A stretch of 56,547 nt of DNA. Origin: Lachnospiraceae bacterium (GTDB taxonomy: Bacteria; Bacillota; Clostridia; Lachnospirales; Lachnospiraceae). The position numbers were made by a program, and so were the translations under genes. This document shows, piece after piece, positions 42,012 through 54,100 of this stretch (the first letter of the stretch is position 1; each line of letters starts with the position of its first letter). Below the pieces are notes generated by a model. The model did not search any database, had not been told where the DNA came from, and saw nothing but the letters and a program-made list of their open reading frames with translations. The DNA lies in the NCBI GenBank assembly GCA_016281335.1, contig JAEEIK010000043.1:1-56547 (forward strand), given 5' to 3'.

Positions 42012-45000
42012 ATGGAAAAATTCAGTGTAAAAAGACCATTTACCGTTCTTGTGGGTGTAATAGCGGCCGTTGTTCTCGGTTTTGTCAGCATGAGCAGTAT
42101 GCAGCTCGATCTGTTGCCCGATATATCCCTTCCTTACTTAATGGTGCTCACGACTTATCCGGGCGCCAGTTCCGAAAAGATAGAAACAGAGATATGCGAA
42201 CCCATTGAAGCTTCATTGGGTAAGATAAACGGAATAAAAAATGTTTCCAGTACCTGCAACGAAAACTATGGCCTGGTACAGCTTGAATTCGTGGATGACA
42301 CGGATCTTGACAGCGCCATGGTCAAAGTTTCCAGTGCTTTAAACACTCTTCAGCCCTATCTGCCGGAAGATGCCGGCACTCCCTCCATAATAGAGATAAG
42401 CACCGATATGGTAGCCAGTGTTTATCTGGCTGTTAGTATGGAAGGCATGGAGATGGAAGAACTCTCCCAGTTCGTTCGTGACGAGATCACTCCCCAGTAT
42501 GAAAAACAGAACGGCGTGGCTTCGGTTACGACTCTCGGTCTGGTGGACAAGAGCGTGGAAGTCAGGCTTAACGAAAAGAAGATCAAAGAGCTTAATGAGC
42601 GTATACTGGCTACGGTTGATGAGGCTTTTGATGATGCACAGGAGCAGCTGGATGATGCAAAGCAGCAGCTGGAAGATTCCCAGGAAACCCTGGATGAGAA
42701 TCGTAAGAAGCTGGAAGATTCCAAGAAAGATCTGGCCGACGGCATAAAGGAACTGCTGGATTCGCAGCAGGAACTAAATGACGGAAAAGCGGAGCTTGCC
42801 GACAATAAGAAAAAGTGGGAAGACTCAAAGCGTGATCTCGAAAAGGCAGAGCAGGAACTGGAGGATAAGAAAAAGGAATCCAATGAAAAACTGGCTGATC
42901 TGAGTTATCAGGTGGATCAGGCTTCTGCATCTTTAGCGTCTTTAAAAACCCAGCTTTCACAGAGTGAAGCTACGCTGCCTGCTTTAAAGAAGGGTATCAA
43001 GCAGATCGATGAAGGCATAGCAAAGATAGATGATGGCATCAAACAGATAGATGACGGCGTAAAGCAGATCGATGAAGGCATAGCAAAGATAGATGAAGGC
43101 CTGAAAGCCATTGAAGAAATAGAAGCAAAGGGAATAACTGCAGATAATGTCGGAGGCATGATCTCAGGTCTGGAAAGCAATATTTCCCTGATAGAGACTC
43201 AGATATCCGCCCTGGATCCGAGTGCTGCAGACTATGAGGTCCAGCTGGCAGGGCTTAATACCCAGCTTGCCAATCTAAAAGAACAGCTGGCACAGCTTAA
43301 GCAGGCGAAGGCAGTGCTTGACCAGAAGAGCAGTCTCACCAGCCAGAAGAAGCAGCTGGAAGACCAGAAAACTCAGCTGGAGGAACAGAAGAAACAGCTC
43401 GAGGAGCAGAAAAAGGGCCTTGAAGATCAGAAAGCTTCTATCGAAGCTCAGAAAACCCAGACCGAGGCAACAGTCAAAGGACTGAAAAAAGCCATATCTG
43501 ATATGGAAGGGCAGGTAGAGGATGCCTATAAAGAACTGGAAAAAGGCAAACTGGAGGCAGCAGCTTCCCTGGGAAGCGCCGATGCACAGCTTACTATAGG
43601 AAAGACTCAGTTAGACAGTGCAAAAGCCCAGTTTGACAGTGCCGAAGACCAGCTGGAATCTGCACAGGAACAGATCGATAACGGCTGGGACAGCATAGAA
43701 GACGGTCAAAAGCAGATCAATGATGGTCTGGAGCAGATAGAGGACGGTCAGAAGCAGATCGATGACGGCTGGACCGATTACGAAGACGGCGTAAGAAAAT
43801 TCGAGAAGCAGAAGGCAGAGGCGAAGAAGAGTGCAAATGCAGATAAACTGCTGACCCTGGAGACTCTGTCCGGTCTGATATATGCGCAGAACTTTGAAAT
43901 GCCTGCAGGCTATGTGGATGATACGGCAGATAGTTCATGGCTGGTAAAGATAGGCCAGAATTACGAAGATGTTTCGGAACTCAATGATATAGTGCTTACC
44001 AATATCAATAAAGTCGGTGATGTAAAAATCGGTGATGTGGCAGATATCGTTGTGATCGATAATGCTGATAAGAGCTATGTAAGACTCGGAAAAAACAAGG
44101 CCGTGATACTTTCGATATTCAAGAGCAGTACAACGGGTACCAATGATATGTCCAGGACCATTGCGGCGGCCAGCGAGGAGTTGAAAGCAGCACATCCCGG
44201 ACTGCAGGTGACCACACTGGTGGATATGGGAGATTATATTGACATTATAGTAAAAAGTGTGCTTACTTCCATGGGCATAGGCGCATTGCTTGCAGTCGTG
44301 ATACTGGCTATATTCTTAAAAGACGTAAAGCCTACTCTTGTGGTGGCGATAAGCATACCGGTTTCTGTTCTTACGGCTATCATGTGTATGTATTTCTCGG
44401 GCATATCACTTAATATGCTGTCGCTATCCGGTCTTGCTCTGGGTATAGGTATGCTGGTGGATAACTCCATAGTGGTCATGGAAAACATATACCGATTGAG
44501 AGGGCATGGTATAGAAGCGCCGCGTGCAGCGGTACAGGGTACCAGACAGGTAGCCGGCTCCATCATTGCTTCTACACTTACGACCGTGTGCGTGTTCCTT
44601 CCGATGATATTTACGACAGGTCTGGTGCGGGATCTCATCGCGCCAATGTGTCTGACCATAGTATTCTGTCTGATGGCATCGCTTTTGATAGCGATGACGG
44701 TGGTACCTGCTTCGGCTTCCACCCTGCTTAAGAACGCACAGCCTAAAGAACATCCTTTATTTGACAAGATAATGGTTCTTTATGAAAAGATCCTTCGTTT
44801 CTGTCTCAAAGTAAAGCCGGTGCCCATAGCGCTTGCGCTGGGCCTTCTGGTCTTCTCATGCATAATGATAGTACGTATGGGAATAGTAGTCATTCCCGAA
44901 ATGACAATGACTCAGATGCAGGCAGATATTTCTTATCCTGAGGAGATGACGAGGGAAGAAGCATATGCAACCACGGATGAAGTGATAGAGCGTATGCTTA

Positions 45001-46430
45001 AGATAGAAGGTATAGGAACGATAGGTGTACTGACCGGAAACGGTTCAGCTCTTCTGGTATCCGAATCTGCCGGAGAGGATGATTTCCGTCATATGTCATT
45101 TATGATAATGACCGCAGATGAGAATGCCGGAGAGGAAGAGATAAAACGTATTAACCGTGAGATAGAGCAGATAGGTACCGATATGAGTATTGATCTGACC
45201 ATGACTTCAATGGCTACAGAGATGGATTCGCTGACCGGAGGTTCGGGCCTGTCGCTTAATGTCTACGGTCAGGATATCGATGAACTTACACGCATTACAG
45301 GAGAGATCTGCGATATAGTTGATACGATAGACGGGTATGAGAATATCTCCAACGGGTCCGAGGATGCCGGAAAAGCCGCACACGTGACGATTGATAAGAA
45401 TAAGGCCATGGGCCTGGGACTCAGCGTGGTACAGATATATCAGGATATAAACAAAAAGCTCACACATTCAAAGAGCGCTGTGACTATCACGGTTGATGGC
45501 ATCGATATGGATATAGTGGTGGTGGATGAAACTAAGCCGATGACTTACGAGAATCTGCTGGACTATGAATTCACGGTTGAAAAGACCGATGATGATAATG
45601 ATACGATCCATGAAGATCACAAACTCAGAGAGTTTGCTACAGTGGAAGTTAAGGATGAGCTTAACAGTATAAACCGTAAAAACCAGAGCAGATTTATGAC
45701 TGTCACGGCATCCGTAGGTGAAGGTTATAATACAACACTGCTTACCAGAAAGCTGAAACCACTGCTTGATAAGTACAAGCTTCCCCAGGGTTATTCGATG
45801 GAACTGGGTGGCGAATATGATTCGGTACTTACCATGTTAAGGCAGATGGCGCTTGTGATAATACTGGGATTACTGATGGTCTATCTGGTAATGGTAGGAC
45901 AGTTCCAGAGTCTCCTAAGTCCTTTCATAGTGCTCTTTACCGTGCCTCTGGCCTTTACCGGAGGATTCCTTACCATGTGGCTGTGCAGGGAGAACCTGTC
46001 AATGATCAGTATACTCGGTATAGTAGTGCTGATGGGTACTGTCGTTAATAACGGTATAGTCTTCGTGGACTATGCTAACCAGTTAAGAAAGGGCGGACTG
46101 GACCGTACTACTGCGCTGGTAGTAACAGGAAAGACTCGTATGAGGCCGATATTGATGACGGCGCTTACCACCATACTTGCGGAGTCCAATCTGATCATGG
46201 GCGACGATATGGGAGCTCAGTTAGGACGAGGCATGGCACTGGTCATCGCAGGAGGTCTTGCTTATGCGACCCTGATGACGCTGTTCATCATACCCGTTAT
46301 GTATGACATACTGTTTAAGAGACAGCCTCTCGATGTTGACACGGGAAGCGAGAGCCTTGATGATATTCCCGATGATGCAGCGGAATACCTGGCAAGCCAG
46401 GACAAGGATGTGGAATTTATAGCTGATTAA
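42012..46430 (+). CDS. RND-family efflux permease with a ~415-residue coiled-coil insertion
   Basis: A 1472-residue HAE1/AcrB-type RND pump driven by the proton gradient. The usual two halves are present: TM1 near residues 10-30, TM2-6 from about 755, TM7 near 945 and the last TM set from about 1275. The relay-helix motif reads GIGMLVDNSIVVMEN near 815, so the second Asp of the usual pair is Asn. Residues ~196-610, within the first extracytoplasmic loop, are a long heptad-rich coiled coil full of KQQLEDSQ-, QKKQLEEQ- and IDDGVKQIDEGIAK-like repeats, absent from classic AcrB. Family length is normally ~1030. No membrane-fusion or outer-membrane partner gene is adjacent, so the insertion may replace an adaptor. 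Substrate unknown. Confidence 0.9.
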   Translation: MEKFSVKRPFTVLVGVIAAVVLGFVSMSSMQLDLLPDISLPYLMVLTTYPGASSEKIETEICEPIEASLGKINGIKNVSSTCNENYGLVQLEFVDDTDLDSAMVKVSSALNTLQPYLPEDAGTPSIIEISTDMVASVYLAVSMEGMEMEELSQFVRDEITPQYEKQNGVASVTTLGLVDKSVEVRLNEKKIKELNERILATVDEAFDDAQEQLDDAKQQLEDSQETLDENRKKLEDSKKDLADGIKELLDSQQELNDGKAELADNKKKWEDSKRDLEKAEQELEDKKKESNEKLADLSYQVDQASASLASLKTQLSQSEATLPALKKGIKQIDEGIAKIDDGIKQIDDGVKQIDEGIAKIDEGLKAIEEIEAKGITADNVGGMISGLESNISLIETQISALDPSAADYEVQLAGLNTQLANLKEQLAQLKQAKAVLDQKSSLTSQKKQLEDQKTQLEEQKKQLEEQKKGLEDQKASIEAQKTQTEATVKGLKKAISDMEGQVEDAYKELEKGKLEAAASLGSADAQLTIGKTQLDSAKAQFDSAEDQLESAQEQIDNGWDSIEDGQKQINDGLEQIEDGQKQIDDGWTDYEDGVRKFEKQKAEAKKSANADKLLTLETLSGLIYAQNFEMPAGYVDDTADSSWLVKIGQNYEDVSELNDIVLTNINKVGDVKIGDVADIVVIDNADKSYVRLGKNKAVILSIFKSSTTGTNDMSRTIAAASEELKAAHPGLQVTTLVDMGDYIDIIVKSVLTSMGIGALLAVVILAIFLKDVKPTLVVAISIPVSVLTAIMCMYFSGISLNMLSLSGLALGIGMLVDNSIVVMENIYRLRGHGIEAPRAAVQGTRQVAGSIIASTLTTVCVFLPMIFTTGLVRDLIAPMCLTIVFCLMASLLIAMTVVPASASTLLKNAQPKEHPLFDKIMVLYEKILRFCLKVKPVPIALALGLLVFSCIMIVRMGIVVIPEMTMTQMQADISYPEEMTREEAYATTDEVIERMLKIEGIGTIGVLTGNGSALLVSESAGEDDFRHMSFMIMTADENAGEEEIKRINREIEQIGTDMSIDLTMTSMATEMDSLTGGSGLSLNVYGQDIDELTRITGEICDIVDTIDGYENISNGSEDAGKAAHVTIDKNKAMGLGLSVVQIYQDINKKLTHSKSAVTITVDGIDMDIVVVDETKPMTYENLLDYEFTVEKTDDDNDTIHEDHKLREFATVEVKDELNSINRKNQSRFMTVTASVGEGYNTTLLTRKLKPLLDKYKLPQGYSMELGGEYDSVLTMLRQMALVIILGLLMVYLVMVGQFQSLLSPFIVLFTVPLAFTGGFLTMWLCRENLSMISILGIVVLMGTVVNNGIVFVDYANQLRKGGLDRTTALVVTGKTRMRPILMTALTTILAESNLIMGDDMGAQLGRGMALVIAGGLAYATLMTLFIIPVMYDILFKRQPLDVDTGSESLDDIPDDAAEYLASQDKDVEFIAD
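42600..43840 (+). repeat. Internal coiled-coil repeat region of the RND gene
   Basis: Short degenerate repeats (CAGCTGGAAGA-, AAGCAGATCGATGA- and ATAGATGA-type units) encode Gln/Glu/Lys/Asp-rich heptads. A nearly identical IDEGIAKID unit occurs twice around 43005-43100. These are coding repeats and not a CRISPR or mobile repeat. Confidence 0.8.
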
Positions 46431-46433
46431 ATA

Positions 46434-46832
46434 TCAGAGAAGATCACTTAGTTTCTTTTTATAAAAGAAGTCGTGTACCAGTTTGTCATACTCTTTCCAC
46501 ATGGGAAGGGTATGGCATTTTCTCTTTCTGGGACAGTTGTATTTCTTGTCGGCAAGACAGGCAACGGAAGAAAGGGAACCCTCCATATGCTCAAGGATCT
46601 CCCCGACGGTGTAATCTTTTGGAGCGCGCAGCAGCTTGTATCCGCCGCCTTTTCCGCTGACGCCGGTGACAAAATTGCCGTTAACGAGGTCCTTAACGAT
46701 TATCTCAAGGTATTTCTTGGATATTTCCTGGCGTTCCGCTATATCTTTTAAAGGAATATAGTTTCCTCCGTTATCATTTTCAGCAAGGTCTATCATCACT
46801 CTTATCGCGTAGCGTCCTCTTGTAGATATCAT
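46434..46832 (-). CDS. Rrf2-family regulator (CymR/IscR-like)
   Basis: A 132-residue Rrf2 winged-helix repressor: MISTRGRYAIRVMIDLA start, recognition region IAERQEISKKYLEIIVKDL and a GVSGKGGGYKL wing. Three Cys (92, 100 and 106) lie in the loop where IscR binds an iron-sulfur cluster, though the spacing (8 and 6) differs from IscR (6 and 6). It lies next to metY-cysK and inverted repeats cover both its own and the sulfur operon's promoters, pointing to cysteine or Fe-S control of sulfur assimilation. GGAGG precedes the ATG. It converges on the RND gene with 3 bases between stops. Confidence 0.9.
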   Translation of the reverse strand: MISTRGRYAIRVMIDLAENDNGGNYIPLKDIAERQEISKKYLEIIVKDLVNGNFVTGVSGKGGGYKLLRAPKDYTVGEILEHMEGSLSSVACLADKKYNCPRKRKCHTLPMWKEYDKLVHDFFYKKKLSDLL

Positions 46833-46857
46833 ATAAAAAACCTCCTTTGCCGTTGCT

Positions 46858-46890
46858 AAAACCTATTATACTACAGGAAAAATAGGTTTT
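46858..46890. promoter_or_regulatory. Inverted repeat over the Rrf2 gene promoter
   Basis: AAAACCTATT (46858-46867) and AATAGGTTTT (46881-46890) are perfect 10-bp arms around 13 bases. They overlap the minus-strand -10 TATAAT (46870-46865) whose -35 TTGAAA is at 46894-46889 (18-base spacer). Likely autoregulatory site. Confidence 0.68.
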
Positions 46891-46918
46891 TCAACGAAAT
46901 TTGAAAAAAATATATAAA

Positions 46919-46952
46919 ACCTATTGACACAGTAGGTAAATGATGATATATT
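46919..46952 (+). promoter_or_regulatory. Promoter and Rrf2-like operator of the sulfur operon
   Basis: TTGACA (46924-46929) and TATATT (46947-46952) are separated by 17 bases. ACCTA (46919-46923) and TAGGT (46933-46937) flank the -35, repeating the half-site seen over the Rrf2 promoter. Predicted start near 46959. Confidence 0.75.
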
Positions 46953-46984
46953 AAGTCCAGCTCAAGAGAAAGGAGGAGCGGATC

Positions 46985-47089
46985 ATGTGTAGAAAAGAGA
47001 TGTGTTGTCGAATGCAATACTCCCGGGCGAAGACGATGGCCGGAGCGTCGGATGAAAAGATCCTGCGCCTCGATAAAGAACGATGTTGA
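46985..47089 (+). CDS. Cysteine-rich 34-residue leader peptide
   Basis: A strong AAAGGAGGAG ribosome binding site (46970-46979) sits 5 bases before an ATG that opens a 34-codon ORF ending TGA at 47087-47089. Cys occurs at residues 2, 7, 8 and 34, all as TGT, a frequency (4 of 34) far above the surrounding proteins. The ORF is entirely within the transcribed leader of metY-cysK and is followed by a terminator at 47113, the arrangement of amino-acid-biosynthesis leader peptides. Codons 13-15 contain a CCCGGGCG segment that can pair with the terminator's left arm. The proposed role is ribosome-mediated attenuation: stalling at Cys codons when Cys-tRNA is scarce. The peptide itself matches no family I know. 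Confidence 0.72.
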   Translation: MCRKEMCCRMQYSRAKTMAGASDEKILRLDKERC

Positions 47090-47112
47090 TGCTGAAATTC
47101 TGAAGCCATTTG

Positions 47113-47142
47113 CCCGGGACGAAATGAGCGCCCGGTTTTTTT
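47113..47142 (+). terminator. Attenuator terminator in the metY-cysK leader
   Basis: CCGGG(A)CG (47114-47121) pairs with CGCCCGG (47129-47135) around AAATGAG, followed by seven T (47136-47142). The segment GCCCGGG (47112-47118) can instead pair over 7 GC pairs with CCCGGGC (47022-47028) inside the leader ORF, an antiterminator. Confidence 0.78.
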
Positions 47143-47203
47143 ATGAATAGAACCCCTCATCAGGGGGAAAGCCAAATAAAAAGAAAAAAAGGAGAATAGA
47201 AAA

Positions 47204-48487
47204 ATGAGTGATTATAGATTTGAAACATTACAGTTACACGTAGGACAGGAGCAGGCTGATCCCGCAACGGATTCCAGAGCAGTGCCCATTTATCAGACAA
47301 CTTCATATGTATTCCATAACAGCAAGCATGCAGCAGACCGTTTCGGTCTTGCAGACGCAGGAAATATTTACGGAAGACTTACCAATACCACTCAGGATGT
47401 ACTGGAGAAGAGAGTGGCAGCGCTTGAAGGCGGCAGCGCAGCGCTTGCAGTAGCATCCGGAGCAGCAGCAATCACTTATACAATAGAAGCGCTTGCCGCT
47501 AACGGCGGACATATAGTAGCACAGAAGACCATTTACGGAGGAAGCTACAATCTCTTATCACATACACTTCCCCAGTACGGTATAGAGACAACATTTGTTA
47601 ATGCTCATGACCTTGCAGAAGTAGAAGGAGCAATAAAGGATAACACAAGAGCAATCTATCTTGAGACTCTGGGTAATCCCAACAGTGATATTCCCGATAT
47701 AGATGCCATAGCTGAGATAGCTCATAAGCATGGCATTCCCCTGGTAATAGACAATACCTTCGGCACACCTTATCTGATCAGGCCTATTGAGCATGGCGCT
47801 GATATAGTGGTACATTCGGCAACCAAGTTCCTCGGCGGTCATGGTACTACCCTCGGCGGTATAATCGTTGAGAGTGGTAAGTTTAACTGGAAGGAGAGCG
47901 GCAAGTATCCCGGTATCGCAGAGCCCAATCCCAGCTATCACGGTGTATCCTTCTATGATGTTGTGGGACCGGCTGCATTCGTTACCTATATAAGAGCCAT
48001 ACTCTTAAGAGATACCGGCGCAAGCATTTCACCTTTCAATGCTTTCCTGCTGCTGCAGGGTATAGAGACCCTCTCACTCAGGCTTGAGAGACATGCCGAG
48101 AATACAAAGAAGGTAGTTGATTTCCTTGCATCCAATCCTCTGGTTGAGAGAGTAAATCATCCCTCACTGCCCGATCATCCCGATCATGCGCTTTATCAGA
48201 AGTATTTCCCGAACGGCGGAGCTTCAATATTCACCTTTGATATAAAGGGCGGAAAAGAGGAAGCATGGAAATTCATCGATAATCTTGAGATCTTCTCACT
48301 GCTGGCAAATGTTGCGGATGTTAAGAGCCTTGTGATCCATCCTGCATCAACAACTCATTCACAGCTTACCGAGGAAGAGTTGAAGGATCAGGGCATATAC
48401 CAGAGCACGATCCGTCTGTCCATAGGTACCGAGCATGTAGATGATATAATCGACGATCTGAAAAAAGGCTTTGCAGCTCTTCAGTAA
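47204..48487 (+). CDS. metY: O-acetylhomoserine sulfhydrylase-type PLP enzyme
   Basis: A 427-residue Cys/Met-metabolism PLP-dependent enzyme, of the length and pattern of MetY (O-acetyl-L-homoserine sulfhydrylase), which makes homocysteine from O-acetylhomoserine and sulfide. The N-terminus FETLQLHVGQEQADP and the SYVFHNSKHAADRF loop are typical. The PLP lysine is Lys208 in VVHSATKFLGGHG and the C-terminal SIGTEHVDDII is present. AAAGGAG precedes the ATG. It lies in an operon with cysK behind the cysteine leader and Rrf2 operator. A cystathionine gamma-synthase role is a less likely alternative given the length. Confidence 0.88.
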   Translation: MSDYRFETLQLHVGQEQADPATDSRAVPIYQTTSYVFHNSKHAADRFGLADAGNIYGRLTNTTQDVLEKRVAALEGGSAALAVASGAAAITYTIEALAANGGHIVAQKTIYGGSYNLLSHTLPQYGIETTFVNAHDLAEVEGAIKDNTRAIYLETLGNPNSDIPDIDAIAEIAHKHGIPLVIDNTFGTPYLIRPIEHGADIVVHSATKFLGGHGTTLGGIIVESGKFNWKESGKYPGIAEPNPSYHGVSFYDVVGPAAFVTYIRAILLRDTGASISPFNAFLLLQGIETLSLRLERHAENTKKVVDFLASNPLVERVNHPSLPDHPDHALYQKYFPNGGASIFTFDIKGGKEEAWKFIDNLEIFSLLANVADVKSLVIHPASTTHSQLTEEELKDQGIYQSTIRLSIGTEHVDDIIDDLKKGFAALQ

Positions 48488-48547
48488 GCGCTGCGGTTGA
48501 CGCTTGGAGTATATGGTGATAGAGTAAAAAAACAGGAGGAAGGAAAA

Positions 48548-49480
48548 ATGGCTAATATATATAAAGGAACACTGGGACTTATAGGTAATACACCCCTTGT
48601 AGAGGTAACGAATATAGAGAAGGAGCTTGGGCTTAAGGCAACAGTACTTGTAAAACTTGAGTATTTCAATCCCGCAGGAAGCGTAAAAGACCGTATCGCC
48701 AAGGCAATGATCGAAGATGCCGAGGAAAAGGGTCTGTTAAAAGAAGGTTCAGTGATCATCGAGCCTACCAGCGGCAATACAGGTATAGGCCTTGCATCCA
48801 TCGCTGCAGCCAAGGGATACAGGATCATCCTTACAATGCCCGAGACCATGAGCGTTGAGAGAAGAAACATACTGAAAGCTTACGGCGCAGAACTGGTGCT
48901 GACCGAGGGCGCAAAGGGAATGAAGGGCGCCATAGCGAAAGCTGAGGAGCTGGCTAAGGAGATACCCGGAGGTTTCATACCCGGCCAGTTTGTTAATCCA
49001 GCCAATCCCGCAGTTCATAAGGCAACTACCGGACCGGAGATATGGAAAGACACAGATGGTAAGGTAGATATCTTTATTGCAGGTGTGGGTACCGGCGGTA
49101 CCGTTACCGGAACCGGCGAGTATCTTAAGGAGCAGAATCCTTCGGTTAAGGTAGTGGCGCTTGAGCCTGCAGATTCACCGGTGCTTTCCGAAGGAAAGGC
49201 AGGAGCTCATAAGATCCAGGGTATAGGAGCCGGTTTCGTTCCTGATGTATTGAATACAAAGGTGTATGATGAGGTATTTAAGGCAGCTAATGAAGATGCT
49301 TTCGCAGCAGCAAAACTGCTGGCCAAGAAGGAAGGCATATCCGTAGGTATATCTTCGGGCGCAGCGCTTCATGCAGCCATCGAATATGCAAAGAAGGAAG
49401 AGAATGCCGGCAAGACCATAGTGGCACTGCTTCCTGACAGCGGCGACAGATATTATTCTACAGCGCTTTTCACAGACTGA
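48548..49480 (+). CDS. cysK: Cysteine synthase A
   Basis: A 310-residue O-acetylserine sulfhydrylase that makes cysteine from O-acetylserine and sulfide. The PLP lysine is Lys47 in [11 protein letters not shown], with the substrate-binding [10 protein letters not shown] loop, the phosphate-binding GTGGTVTG and the C-terminal [10 protein letters not shown]. The ATG at 48548 has AGGAGGAAGG upstream; an in-frame TTG at 48497 is not used. It is 60 bases downstream of metY, with a terminator at 49507. Being the end-product enzyme for cysteine, it makes sense as a target of the Cys-codon leader. Confidence 0.96.
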
Positions 49481-49506
49481 TAAAAAGTGAAAAATCATAA
49501 ACTATT

Positions 49507-49533
49507 AAAGAGCGCCCATTCGCGCTCTTTTTT
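49507..49533 (+). terminator. Rho-independent terminator after cysK
   Basis: An 8-bp stem AAAGAGCG/CGCTCTTT (49507-49514 with 49523-49530) with an 8-base loop and T-run to 49533. Confidence 0.85.
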
Positions 49534-49550
49534 GTGTTAGCGCTTTGTTC

Positions 49551-49578
49551 TTGAATAATTCTGCAATTTCGGTATACT
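49551..49578 (+). promoter_or_regulatory. Promoter of the DHH-TIR operon
   Basis: TTGAAT (49551-49556) and TATACT (49573-49578) are separated by 16 bases, 38 bases before the DHH ATG. Confidence 0.55.
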
Positions 49579-49616
49579 TAAGTGGTGTGAAAAATAATCC
49601 CGGGGGAATTACAAAT

Positions 49617-51125
49617 ATGAAACTTTCCGATCTTCTTTCCTATAAAGATATAGTGATACAGTGTCACGATAATCCGGATGCGGATGCTCTGGCCTGCGGA
49701 TTTGCCGTGAAGAAATTTCTTAAGATGAAGGGAACGGAGGCGCGCTTCATATACAGCGGAAGGACTCAGATACAGAAATGCAATCTGACCAAGATGATAG
49801 AGCTGCTTAACATAGATATAGAGTATGTGGATACTCTTGAAAAACCGGAGTTACTGGTAACGGTCGATTGTCAGTACGGAGAAAGCAATGTTACGAAATT
49901 TGAAGCAGAGAGCATTGCCGTATTTGATCATCACCAGGTATCCACCGAGCTTCCCGAGATGTCGGAGGTACGCAGCACTTACGGTTCCTGCGCGACATTG
50001 ATGTTTAAGCTGCTGGAGGAAGAAGGCATAGAGATTAATGACGATATAGAGCTGGCTACGGCTCTGTATTATGGACTCTTTACTGATACTGGAAGCCTTG
50101 CCGAAATATCCCATCCTGCAGACAGGGACCTGAGGGATCACGCTAAATATTCAAAGGAAGACATACTGATCTTCCGTAATTCCAATCTTTCCAGAGAAGA
50201 ACTTGAGATAGCGGGAAATGCTTTAAAGAATGCATATTATGAAGAGAAATTCCCCTACGCGATAATAGAGGCAGAACCCTGCGATCCTAATATCCTGGGT
50301 GTGATAAGTGATATGCTGCTGGAGGTGGAAGGACTGGAGAGCTGCCTCGTATACAGCTATCTTTCTTTCGGCGTTAAGATCTCGGTAAGAAGCTGCAGCA
50401 AAAATGTCAAAGCCAGTGAATTGGCAGGCTATATAGCAAAGGGTTTCGGCGGCGGCGGCGGGCATCTGACCAAAGCCGGAGGATTTTTGCAGAGAGATCT
50501 CTTCGAGCAGAACGGACTCGAATATAAGAACGAAGTCATAGAAGAGCTGATGAAGGACCGTATGTTCAGCTACTACAGAGACAGTGAGATACGCTATGCA
50601 GGCGTGGAGGATGAAGATCTCAGTGATTATCGCAGCTTTATAAAGCGCGAAGTCCTGATGGGTTATGTGGAAGGCATCAATCTCGGAGAGATCGGAAGAC
50701 GCGTGGTCATAAGGACGCTTGAAGGTGATGTTGAAGTAACGATAAAAGAAGACCTGATAATAGTCTTTGGCATAGAGGGCGAGATGTGGCCCATAGAAAA
50801 AAAGAAATTCGAAGTGTCTTACAGAAAGAGTGATGAGGAATATGTATATCCGGGAGAGTATGAGCCGACAGTGATAGATTCGGAAACGGAAGAACATATA
50901 AACATGCTTCCCTATGCGAAAAGCTGCATAGCTCTCGGAGGCAGCGGTATTTACGCAAAGGAACTGGATCACAGGGTTAAGATATTCTCTACCTGGGATC
51001 CCGATAAGTATTATCTCGGAGTACCCGGAGATTACCTGGCCGTAAGGACAGACGATCATAAAGATATCTACATCATAGCAAGAAATATTTTCAAAAGAAC
51101 TTATATTGAAATAGTAGGAGAATAG
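49617..51125 (+). CDS. DHH-family phosphoesterase with two extra C-terminal modules
   Basis: 502 residues, about 180 longer than NrnA-type nanoRNase/pAp phosphatases. The N-terminal DHH domain has HDNPDAD (17-23), VDCQYGES (83-90) and FDHHQ (103-107); the DHHA1 part ends with FGGGGGHLTKAGG (277-289). Residues ~350-402 and ~438-499 each end with a strand pattern of the type G-(D/E)-x-(L/W)-I...WPI...F-x-x-(S/T)-Y: EDLIIVFGIEGEMWPI with FEVSY, and PGDYLAVRTDD with IFKRTY. This resembles small phage-borne GDWI/IFxxTYE modules, here in tandem. It probably hydrolyses short oligonucleotides or nucleotide signals. GGGGGAA precedes the ATG at 49617. Its 3' end carries the ribosome binding site of the TIR gene. 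Confidence 0.8.
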   Translation: MKLSDLLSYKDIVIQCHDNPDADALACGFAVKKFLKMKGTEARFIYSGRTQIQKCNLTKMIELLNIDIEYVDTLEKPELLVTVDCQYGESNVTKFEAESIAVFDHHQVSTELPEMSEVRSTYGSCATLMFKLLEEEGIEINDDIELATALYYGLFTDTGSLAEISHPADRDLRDHAKYSKEDILIFRNSNLSREELEIAGNALKNAYYEEKFPYAIIEAEPCDPNILGVISDMLLEVEGLESCLVYSYLSFGVKISVRSCSKNVKASELAGYIAKGFGGGGGHLTKAGGFLQRDLFEQNGLEYKNEVIEELMKDRMFSYYRDSEIRYAGVEDEDLSDYRSFIKREVLMGYVEGINLGEIGRRVVIRTLEGDVEVTIKEDLIIVFGIEGEMWPIEKKKFEVSYRKSDEEYVYPGEYEPTVIDSETEEHINMLPYAKSCIALGGSGIYAKELDHRVKIFSTWDPDKYYLGVPGDYLAVRTDDHKDIYIIARNIFKRTYIEIVGE

Positions 51126-51129
51126 CAGT

Positions 51130-54100
51130 ATGAGGTATGATGCTTTTATAAGCTACAGACACAGCGAACTCGATATGGAGATCGCGAAGAAACTGCATAA
51201 GGGCCTTGAGACTTTTAAGATACCGGCTTCGGTCAGAAAGAAGTACGGAAAAAAGAAAATAGAAAGAGTATTCCGCGATCAGGAAGAACTGCCCATAGGA
51301 AGCGATCTGGATGATAATATCACGGCAGCTCTTAAGGATTCGGAATATCTTATTGTTATCTGTTCTCCGAGAACACCGAAATCAGTCTGGGTATGTAAGG
51401 AAATAGAAACCTTTATCAAGCTTCATGACAGAAGCCATGCGTTGGCGATACTTATTGAGGGAGAACCGAATGAGAGTTTCCCGGCAGCGCTGCTTACCGA
51501 TGAGAACGGAAAACCCGTGGAACCGCTGGCTGCAGATATAAGAGGCGAAACAAAGAAGGAGCGCGACAAGAAATTCAAGACTGAGTTGATGCGGCTCTGC
51601 GCTCCTCTTATCGGCTGTGAGTATGATGATCTGAAGCAGAGACACAGAGAGAGGATAATACGCAGGAATATCTGTATAGCGGCAATTGCAGCAGTTGCAA
51701 CAGCTGCGCTTGGTGTGGCTTTTGGACTTTACAATGCGGTAGTAGCAAGAAACATGGAAGCACTTGCTAAGAAAAATGCTGATCTTGCTTTGGAAAAAAC
51801 CGTTATGGCAGGTCAGATATTCGACCAGTATCAGGAAACACAGAAGAACCAGTCCAGGTTTTATGCTGAAAAATCTCTTTCACTTCTGGAAGAAGGAAAC
51901 AGGGAAGCAGCGATACTTACAGCGATAGCAGGATTGCCGGACGGAGGGCATGATGACAGGCCTTATGTTCCCGAAAATGAATTTGCCCTGAGTCAGGCGC
52001 TGCACGTATATGATGACGGAAGCGTGATCGATCATGACAGACTGCTCCATCATGATAATATAGTAACGGATATAGAATACTGTGCAGACGGAAAGTATCT
52101 CCTGACTGTTGACAGAAATGAAAATGTATATGTCTGGGATACGGAAAACTGGGAAAGAAAAGTGATGATACCCTACGTCATGGATGACAAGGGTTATCTT
52201 GAAACAGTTGAGGGCGCATCTGCCGATGAGAGCGGCGTATATATTGCAACGACAGCTTCCTTGACCAAATATGACTTTAACGGAGCTGTGCTGTTTAGCT
52301 ATGAAGGAGATTCGGATTATCTGGGTTTTGAACTGTGTGAGGATAAGAGTATCGCAGTGCTGATCGGAACACAGAAGATAGATTTTGTTGACATGCAGGG
52401 CGGTAAACTTCTTTTTTCCAAGGAAAACGGTGACGGCGCTTCTTATAGTGCAAGAGGCGCATATATAGGAGAGGGAGTCTATGCGGCAACACATGTTTCG
52501 GCAGATGACAGCAGGACGATCCTTACGCTGATAGATACTGAAACCTGGGAAAGTACGGAAACGGAAATAAGGCACGATTACGTATTGAAGCTGGCCGGAT
52601 CGAAGGAAGGATATGCAGTGGTACTCAGCTGTAATCCCGACTTTTATTACGGAGCCGGAGTGACTGAGCTTGGACTTGAGCGCATCAATAAGGACGGAAG
52701 CAAAAGCTGGTCGGAGGATCTTAACATACAGATAATCAATACCGCTACTTTCAATACGCAGCTGAAGGTTCAGGATTATAACAAAAAAGTAGTATTTGCT
52801 GTGGAGAACGGCGCCTATATCTATGATGCGGAAGACGGAACTGAGAGCGGACGCTTAGCTATGTTCGGTGAAGTGGAAACGATGCTGCTCTCTACCAATT
52901 CAAGTGTTGGCTGCGTGGGTTATTCCAACGGTGTGATGGACTGGATCGATACGGATAAGATAATGCTGTATGACGACTACAGGCTGGATACCGGCATTTC
53001 TCTCAGGGATATGTACTTCTTCGGAAACGAAAGAGTGATAATGAGCAGATCATCGGATATCTACGTGCTTAGTTATCATAAGGGAGAGGGATTGGAAGAG
53101 CTTCCGGAACTCGATAAACGTTATCTGGCTACAGCGATATCGCCCTCAGGCAGTTACTATATGATGAATGATTATATGGATGGCAAGAGCTACAGCTTCT
53201 ATGATAAGGACGGAGAGCAGCTTTATGTATTTGATCAGAGCAACAATTACGCATTCGATATATGCTGTCAAGATGATAAGACCCTGCTTGCTACGTCGGA
53301 AGGAATATGGGAGATAGATCCATATAAGGCAACGGCAACGCTGAATACATATAAAACACTTGGCAGTGACAATATTTACTCCAGAGGAGAGTTCACACGA
53401 GACGGGAACTTCTGTGTGGTATGGAACATTACTAAATTAGCAGCATTTAATATGAAAGATCAAAGTCTTGTATATGAGCAGGATTGTGAAGAAATGACAG
53501 GCTGCGCTGAAATTTCAGAAGACGGGACAAAGATACTTATCTCGTCGACAGGGAAAAATCTTTCGATCATAGATACGGCAAGCGGGAAAACACGTGAATA
53601 CGAGGATGTCAATCTTCGTGAGACCGCTAACAGCTATACTTCGGATTATTTAGCCGTAAATCCTTCGGGAACGACGGCAGCCATGTTCTGCGCAGACGGA
53701 AAAGTCCGTATCATCAATACCGAAGACGGCAAGCTGGTAGCAAGCCTGCCTATGCAGATAAATCTCAGCAGCTTTATACTTTTTGATAAGCAGGGAAAGC
53801 ATCTTATCATGCAGGGAGATGATCATACAGTTTATATCTGGGACATCAATAAGGGTGAATACAGCAGTATCATAACTGCTTATTCGGATCTTAAATATAT
53901 AACTACGGATGATAAGGATGGCATGATCATCTGCTGTGAAGGTACGGGTATTCATGTTCTTGAGGATAATACTTTTGCAAGGATAGCTTATGTACCGGAT
54001 GGCATAGCTTATATTGCTGACGAGAATGCATTTATCCAGAGAGACGGTACCAATGTATATAAGAATTACTATATGGATTACAAACAGCTTATAGAAGAGG

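Follow-up and report, generated by a model that had tools for sequence, protein, structure and literature searches.

A candidate cysteine-responsive, ribosome-mediated transcription attenuator upstream of metY-cysK and other sulfur genes in Clostridia

The metY and cysK genes of a Lachnospiraceae bacterium, located in the window (the whole 56,547-nucleotide stretch of DNA analysed here), are preceded by a leader that, judged from sequence comparison and modelled folding, very probably acts as a cysteine-responsive, ribosome-mediated transcription attenuator. The anatomy of an attenuator and the selection acting on it are well shown by comparison of related leaders: a short ORF, its Cys codons, an intrinsic terminator, a covarying antiterminator and the recurrence of these parts upstream of cysteine and sulfur genes were all observed. 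From this anatomy we infer the response and its kinetics, namely that the ORF would be translated, that ribosomes would stall on its Cys codons, and that the direction and timing of stalling would favour read-through when cysteine is scarce.

Architecture of the leader in the window

The following features were identified in and around the leader.

46434..46832, - strand: divergent Rrf2-family regulator gene, CymR/IscR-like (TIGR00738 rrf2_super, 109.1 bits, cut-off 73.3)
46920..46936 (within 46860-46936), + strand: operator-like inverted repeat CCTATTGACACAGTAGG (CCTATTGACA..AGTAGG-type), overlapping the -35 box (from sequence)
46924..46952, + strand: sigma-70-type promoter, TTGACA-17-TATATT (consensus matches 11/12)
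46985..47089, + strand: leader peptide ORF, ATG start, 34 aa, MCRKEMCCRMQYSRAKTMAGASDEKILRLDKERC (from sequence; homologous ORFs in relatives)
47003..47008, + strand: tandem Cys codons 7-8 (TGT TGT), proposed sensor codons
47009..47014, + strand: CGA ATG (Arg-Met), nearly invariant hexamer (131/141 model-found leaders)
47020..47029, + strand: segment A, antiterminator 5' strand, partner of B (covariation, helix 1)
47036..47040, + strand: AUGGC, 5' strand of antiterminator helix 2 (covariation, helix 2)
47040..47047, + strand: segment A', CCGGAG able to pair with A, 3' part in the central hairpin (weak covariation, synonymous-shuffle control)
47066..47071, + strand: CGCCTC, 3' strand of the central hairpin, about 5 codons ahead of the stop (covariation, helix 3)
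47084..47089, + strand: terminal Cys codon and stop, TGT TGA (from sequence)
47105..47109, + strand: GCCAT, 3' strand of antiterminator helix 2 (covariation)
47111..47119, + strand: segment B, antiterminator 3' strand and terminator 5' arm (complementarity, covariation)
47129..47142, + strand: terminator 3' arm CGCCCGG and seven-T tract (RNAfold -10.6 kcal/mol for 47112-47136)
47204..48487, + strand: metY, O-acetylhomoserine/O-acetylserine sulfhydrylase (TIGR01326, 629.6 bits, cut-off 495.1)
48548..49480, + strand: cysK, cysteine synthase A (TIGR01139, 452.9 bits, cut-off 350.95)

The Cys codons of the 34-codon ORF (2, 7, 8 and 34) are all TGT. The first-pass annotation had placed these codons as well as CCCGGGC (47022-47028), GCCCGGG (47112-47118), CGCCCGG (47129-47135) and the seven T residues (47136-47142), and all are present base for base at exactly these positions. 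Its reading of the downstream genes as metY and cysK also holds, both family matches lying above their cut-offs. A Shine-Dalgarno sequence (GGAGG) lies 8 nt ahead of the ORF start, segment A occupies codons for Ser-Arg-Ala and is complementary to B, and the ORF ends in Arg-Cys-stop (CGATGTTGA, 47081-47089). A simple terminator scan of the window did not list the leader terminator at 47112-47142, probably because the scan takes loops of 3-8 only, and NCBIfam holds no family matching the leader peptide of the window or that of one relative. Two candidates picked out by eye, a hairpin inside GUGUUGUCGAAUGC and an overlapping ATG at CGATGTTGA, both in the first leaders, were dropped, as divergent relatives do not keep them.

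Distribution of the leader and its downstream genes

With MetY as bait in 60 genomes, the upstream regions were compared at 30 loci including the window. An ORF running through CGAATG was found ahead of metY in 20 of the 30 loci, window counted. The ten others (L005, L006, L008, L013, L023, L025-L028 and L033) include one in which the contig ends early and segment B is still kept (L005) and one whose leader ORF has the Arg-Cys end without the Cys pair (L008).

A DNA pattern scan of public genomes recovered at least 120 stretches with the leader, with 122 matches in those loci. All 122 of the pattern matches listed sit in frame with a start codon, and 119 are complete and N-free. The scan pattern itself fixes C-C, CGAATG and CTCCCGG, so that those letters are no evidence in the pattern set. 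Among 80 of the matches listed, the titles nearly all refer to clostridial groups (Lachnospiraceae, Ruminococcaceae, Oscillospiraceae, Saccharofermentans, Clostridia and similar). One match (L103) is titled Eggerthellaceae (Actinobacteria) and may reflect transfer or a mis-binned contig.

A sequence-only model, R1, was built from an alignment (A2) of the window, 50 of the 98 listed references and 6 relatives; it is biased towards the letters fixed by the scan pattern. An earlier alignment (A1) used 17 of 19 segments. R1 matched 28 of 35 genomes in the genus, 82 of 115 in one other family, 7 of 148 in another, and 14 of 391 in the class; the leader is thus frequent in certain lineages, and most genomes searched across the class gave no match. 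From 155 model matches, removal of 12 antisense matches on palindromic segments left 143, of which 141 are distinct. These 141 are not every match listed, since 60 regions were chosen, mostly weaker matches, and four loci (L154, L156, L210 and L223) are absent from one step. The pooled set of 234 distinct curated leader ORFs leaves out L169, L202, L236, L237, L260 and L261 as well as incomplete pattern-set ORFs. The alignment of leaders from relatives, proposed as a check when the element was first noted, bears the reading out: the ORF and its Cys codons recur across these 234 ORFs, which rules out a chance ORF, and the antiterminator pairs covary.

In the genome of the window, R1 detects the leader at two places, a third weak match being the antisense of the second. 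The second copy (G000:C158:10981-11122, L155) lies ahead of genes for an NlpA lipoprotein and an iron alcohol dehydrogenase. The same genome has three T-box matches, one of them above the family cut-off and none at the leader copies; these T-boxes precede what look, from their translations, like thrS, trpE and one further gene. At another locus (L059), two leader matches lie 127 nt apart, the first with an ORF containing unknown residues, suggesting either a tandem duplicate or an assembly artefact.

The first genes downstream of the model-found leaders (135 in total, classed by best match to eight references) encode MetY (59), SBP/NlpA proteins (52), iron-containing alcohol dehydrogenases (6), permeases (3), other Cys/Met PLP enzymes (3) and CysK (2). 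The ten unmatched genes form clusters of 6, 3 and 1, which, by their representatives, encode a LysR regulator, an ABC ATPase with an NIL domain and a nitrogenase-component-1-type protein, respectively. No cysS-class gene was found among the 135, by best match or cluster representative. The first genes assigned in the pattern set (114 of the 122 matches listed) comprise 66 Cys/Met PLP enzyme, 37 SBP/NlpA, 5 permease, 2 JAB and 1 CysK-like genes and 3 singletons, with a CysK-like second gene in 42 loci among the matches listed. Judged by these assignments, the genes downstream of the leader appear to be mainly sulfur genes, serving cysteine synthesis or the import of sulfur compounds.

An iron-containing alcohol dehydrogenase gene is often found near the leader (L061, L155 and others; 6 first and 30 second genes), and its link to sulfur is not obvious. 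A weak relative of the leader (L264) lies ahead of a gene for a nitrogenase-component-1-type oxidoreductase.

Antiterminator, terminator and modelled ribosome positions

Among the pattern matches listed, segment B starts 14-45 nt past the stop codon in 113 of 119 leaders, and A and B form 9-10 contiguous pairs (G-U allowed) in 116 of 119, seven of the A bases being fixed by the pattern. Segment A is altered in 54 model-set leaders; some of these carry a compensating B (CTCCCAGGCA:TGCCTGGGAG, GTTCCGGGCA:TGCCCGGAAC and CTCCCGAGCA:TGTTCGGGAG), and in 18 of the 54 the best complement is 6 bases or fewer. When the altered A segments were compared with B regions, their own gave 13.0, those of other leaders 11.4 (sd 2.75), those of other altered leaders 10.8 and shuffled ones 7.4; the difference between own and other B regions is only modest because most B segments share CCGGG.

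Covariation was counted on a structure-blind alignment (A5) of 131 leaders, 10 of the 141 (weak, partial, shifted or odd) having been excluded beforehand. In the antiterminator, which comprises A:B, AUGGC:GCCAU and a central hairpin, 82.9% of cells are paired. Its covariation is 0.237, compared with 0.145 ± 0.006 in shuffled alignments (0/500 as high) and 0.047-0.130 in controls with the structure slid along the alignment; the slid controls weigh more because the shuffles do not preserve relatedness. Double-change cells number 167, compared with 56.7 ± 6.2 in shuffles, and are carried by all three helices; the excess of further pair types is less clear (51 versus 45.9 shuffled, 28/500). Paired cells make up 92.0% in helix 1 (A:B), 71.4% in helix 2 (AUGGC:GCCAU), where double changes occur at all 5 pairs, and 75.5% in helix 3 (the central hairpin). 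A terminator above threshold was found in 134 of 138 model-found leaders, and its 5' arm, B, is also the antiterminator 3' strand, so that the covarying antiterminator and the intrinsic terminator are mutually exclusive.

The evidence for a competing fold, A:A' with CGAAUG:CRUUCG, is weaker. Paired cells make up 70.6%, covariation is 0.122 versus 0.108 in shuffles (0/500), double-change cells number 15 versus 8.9 (7/500), and pairs with double changes 5 versus 5.5. CGAAUG and CRUUCG pair in 63% of cells, and their changes are nearly all one-sided, which leaves this pairing unproven. The switch is richer than the first-pass annotation had it, with AUGGC:GCCAU and the central hairpin lengthening the antiterminator and, less certainly, an A:A' hairpin competing with it.

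The effect of ribosome position was modelled by equilibrium folding with a 30-nt ribosome footprint held unpaired, in 107 of the 122 pattern matches listed; the rest are without a complete ORF, enough sequence or a script-located terminator over B. Without a ribosome, the mean terminator probability is 0.33 (median 0.04), and it is below 0.5 in 70 of the 107 leaders. The mean is lowest with Cys in the A site (0.20 for the first and 0.19 for the second Cys), rises to 0.40 at CGA, 0.80 at AUG and 0.84-0.86 over the next ten codons, and then varies between 0.22 and 0.60 from codon +12 to codon +17, with a mean of 0.51 (median 0.69) at the stop. The probability is below 0.5 at the second Cys and above 0.5 at the stop in 43 leaders, or in 79 when codon +5 is taken for the stop; in 19 it is not below 0.5 at the second Cys. 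A change of footprint shifts the single-codon edge by about one codon. Synonymous shuffling of the codons after A (6 shuffles) lowers the antiterminator probability at Cys from 0.785 to 0.691 and the terminator probability at the stop from 0.512 to 0.383; since both ends of the switch are weakened, the choice of synonymous codons looks tuned for switching.

These data suggest the following mechanism. When charged tRNA-Cys is scarce, the ribosome would wait with Cys codon 7 or 8 in the A site, its leading edge stopping just short of A. Segment A would then be free to pair with B, and this helix, lengthened by AUGGC:GCCAU and the central hairpin, would make B unavailable for the terminator, so that polymerase continues into metY-cysK. 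With ample cysteine, the ribosome would proceed and cover A, and in many family members A would refold onto A' once the ribosome is further downstream; B would then join the terminator arm and transcription would end. The core of this scheme, that a ribosome stalled at Cys frees A to block the terminator, had been put forward in the first-pass annotation; the conservation and covariation of the leader, its gene context and the folding at different ribosome positions all support it. The further proposal that a ribosome at the stop codon favours termination was sustained in part: in the equilibrium model, the terminator probability there exceeds 0.5 in 61 of 107 family members, but not in the leader of the window itself. 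In the latter, the antiterminator probability is 1.0 at the stop codon and also without a ribosome, and the terminator is favoured only with a ribosome at about codons 11-20, covering A. What turns this copy off must therefore be timing or something that the model does not include, and the worry raised at the outset, that a released ribosome would free A again, stands for the window copy as a matter of timing under equilibrium folding.

Sensor codons, rival explanations and known systems

A Cys codon lies within 3 codons before the Arg-Met pair in all 234 curated ORFs, up to 119 of which come from the pattern that forces Cys. The nearest Cys is adjacent to the Arg codon in 221, one codon off in 11 and two off in 2, with Cys-Cys again forced in the pattern set. 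Among model-found leaders with an ORF start, 136 of 139 have Cys within this distance; the three exceptions are shifted or partial, and two of them hold Cys-Cys-Cys slightly upstream. The start codon lies 14-16 codons before the Arg in 183 of 234 ORFs, the 8 of the window being short, and a Shine-Dalgarno match of at least 5 bases in 219 of 234 predicts that the ORFs are translated. The two sensor positions use TGT in 216 of 244 cases, compared with 28% of Cys codons in downstream genes. According to one theoretical study, only certain synonyms among the regulatory codons allow high sensitivity (PMC1183508). The remaining peptide appears to be weakly constrained in sequence, the third-position excess between related leaders being weak (132/187/226 before C-C and 480/557/601 after A). 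The role of the terminal Cys, which is the last residue in 113 of the 234 leaders, is puzzling: a ribosome stalled there would sit at a position that favours termination, the opposite of what a starvation switch needs. In one leader (L161:1501-1645), the ORF stops right after Cys-Cys-Arg-Met-Arg, before A, and a ribosome at that stop would cover A.

The peptide could instead be a nascent-chain arrest peptide of the TnaC type, with C-x-R-M as the arrest motif and the exit tunnel as the place where cysteine or some other ligand is sensed. Such a peptide would account for the near invariance of Arg-Met, with synonymous variants CGG and AGG retaining Arg, for the Met common just ahead of Cys-Cys (76/119 among the pattern matches listed) and for the Cys-stop ends. 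However, upstream residues are variable and the weak third-position excess points to a peptide that is little constrained; CGA is held at the codon level, which points to a nucleotide constraint; Arg is replaced by Leu in one variant and absent in one (L258 and L288); and about half of the leaders are without the Cys end. Conserved tunnel-region residues of the TnaC type were not found, apart from the Met beside the Cys pair, and we regard arrest as very unlikely.

The hexamer CGAATG is kept in 131 of the 141 distinct model-found leaders, and of the 133 Arg codons found here 131 are CGA, a codon that accounts for 2.1% of those for Arg in the downstream genes. Such a rare codon would suit a non-specific monitor, in which slowing at CGA-AUG rather than at Cys reports on general translation (antibiotics or Arg), and with shorter footprints segment A also stays free when the ribosome has CGA in its A site. 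A sensor of this kind would not explain why Cys is kept beside CGA even when the second Cys becomes M, G, W, H, E, R, P, F or Y, nor why the downstream genes are mainly sulfur genes, which makes it highly improbable.

Main control could also lie at the promoter, through the divergent Rrf2 (CymR-like) repressor, with the attenuator minor. The Rrf2-family gene adjoins the leader in the window; its match to the CymR model (83.6 bits) is under that model's cut-off of 195. A CCTA-NN-GACA, ACCTA-N-TGACA or CCTATTGAC element lies within 160 nt upstream of 107 of 137 model-found leaders. The inverted repeat at the -35 box is probably an Rrf2/CymR-like operator bound by such a protein, which suggests two layers of control at metY-cysK. 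The two layers are compatible, but repression leaves the ORF, the Cys codons and the covariation unaccounted for, and its being the main control is equally improbable.

T-boxes or S-boxes control many sulfur genes of clostridia. No Rfam family matched within 44000-52000 of the window (E up to 1) or in 20 related loci, which rules out a known Rfam element, and the T-box covariance model (RF00230) found no match in either. Least probable is a protein-free riboswitch or T-box-like RNA with an incidental ORF, which would fit the strong RNA covariation but not the missing Rfam match, the recurrence of the ORF, Shine-Dalgarno sequence and Cys codons, or the central strands, which lie within the ORF and would be opened by the ribosomes translating it.

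Attenuation by a ribosome stalled on Cys codons thus remains the preferred reading, and its kind is known. Ribosome-mediated attenuators of the trp/his/leu type are known from Proteobacteria. A branched-chain amino acid attenuator, Rli60, is reported from Listeria (PMC5864092) and His leaders have been predicted in bacilli (PMC2965389); all of these share with the present leader a translated ORF with regulatory codons, an antiterminator/terminator pair and an amino-acid gene downstream. Compared with them by description only, the present leader differs in its amino acid (cysteine), its hosts (Clostridia) and the hexamer CGAAUG. Blocking the translation of Rli60 lowered transcription (PMC5864092), whereas the modelled ribosome-free state here mostly disfavours the terminator (70/107). 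Closest in form is uORFC-8-2 upstream of cysS in Rhodobacterales, which shares a tandem-Cys uORF, a structure and a U-run terminator but belongs to Alphaproteobacteria, precedes cysS only, and has its Cys codons, dominated by UGC, within the first stem (PMC8632094); the clostridial leader precedes other genes (metY-cysK in the window) and has its Cys codons, mostly UGU, upstream of the stem. Actinobacterial cys-operon leaders (PMC1262725) and mycobacterial polycysteine short ORFs (PMC13236596) likewise place a Cys-codon ORF ahead of cysteine genes, but in these the Cys run lies near the stop and there is no conserved terminator. For the mycobacterial ORFs, a leaderless organisation and attenuation at the level of translation are described (PMC13236596, citing Canestrari 2020); the clostridial leader, in contrast, has a Shine-Dalgarno sequence and an intrinsic terminator. 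A Cys T-box (RF00230) also senses tRNA charging through a terminator/antiterminator switch; the present leader gives no T-box match.

The first-pass annotation had called a cysteine attenuator controlling metY-cysK in Clostridia unusual and knew of no described family. The principle is not new, Cys leader peptides being known in other phyla (PMC1262725 and PMC8632094). What is new is the family and the hosts that carry it: among the literature matches listed, which lie mostly outside subscription papers, none describes a cysteine leader from Clostridia. Evenly poised, in our judgement, is the fuller reading of a widespread, undescribed cysteine attenuator family of Clostridia in which the stalled ribosome just spares the antiterminator strand, the ribosome-free default is antitermination, five RNA segments interact partly within the ORF, and the near-invariant CGAAUG acts as a second switch element, possibly by pairing with CRUUCG or by pacing the ribosome.

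In Firmicutes, CymR, T-boxes and S-boxes are the usual explanation for cysteine control, and uncoupled transcription has been argued for this phylum. A leader-peptide attenuator recurring upstream of genes for sulfhydrylases and sulfur transport would give gut and rumen Clostridia a further, direct way of sensing charged tRNA-Cys and would bear on the timing between ribosome and polymerase in Firmicutes, and its covarying pairs make it testable with few reporter mutants.
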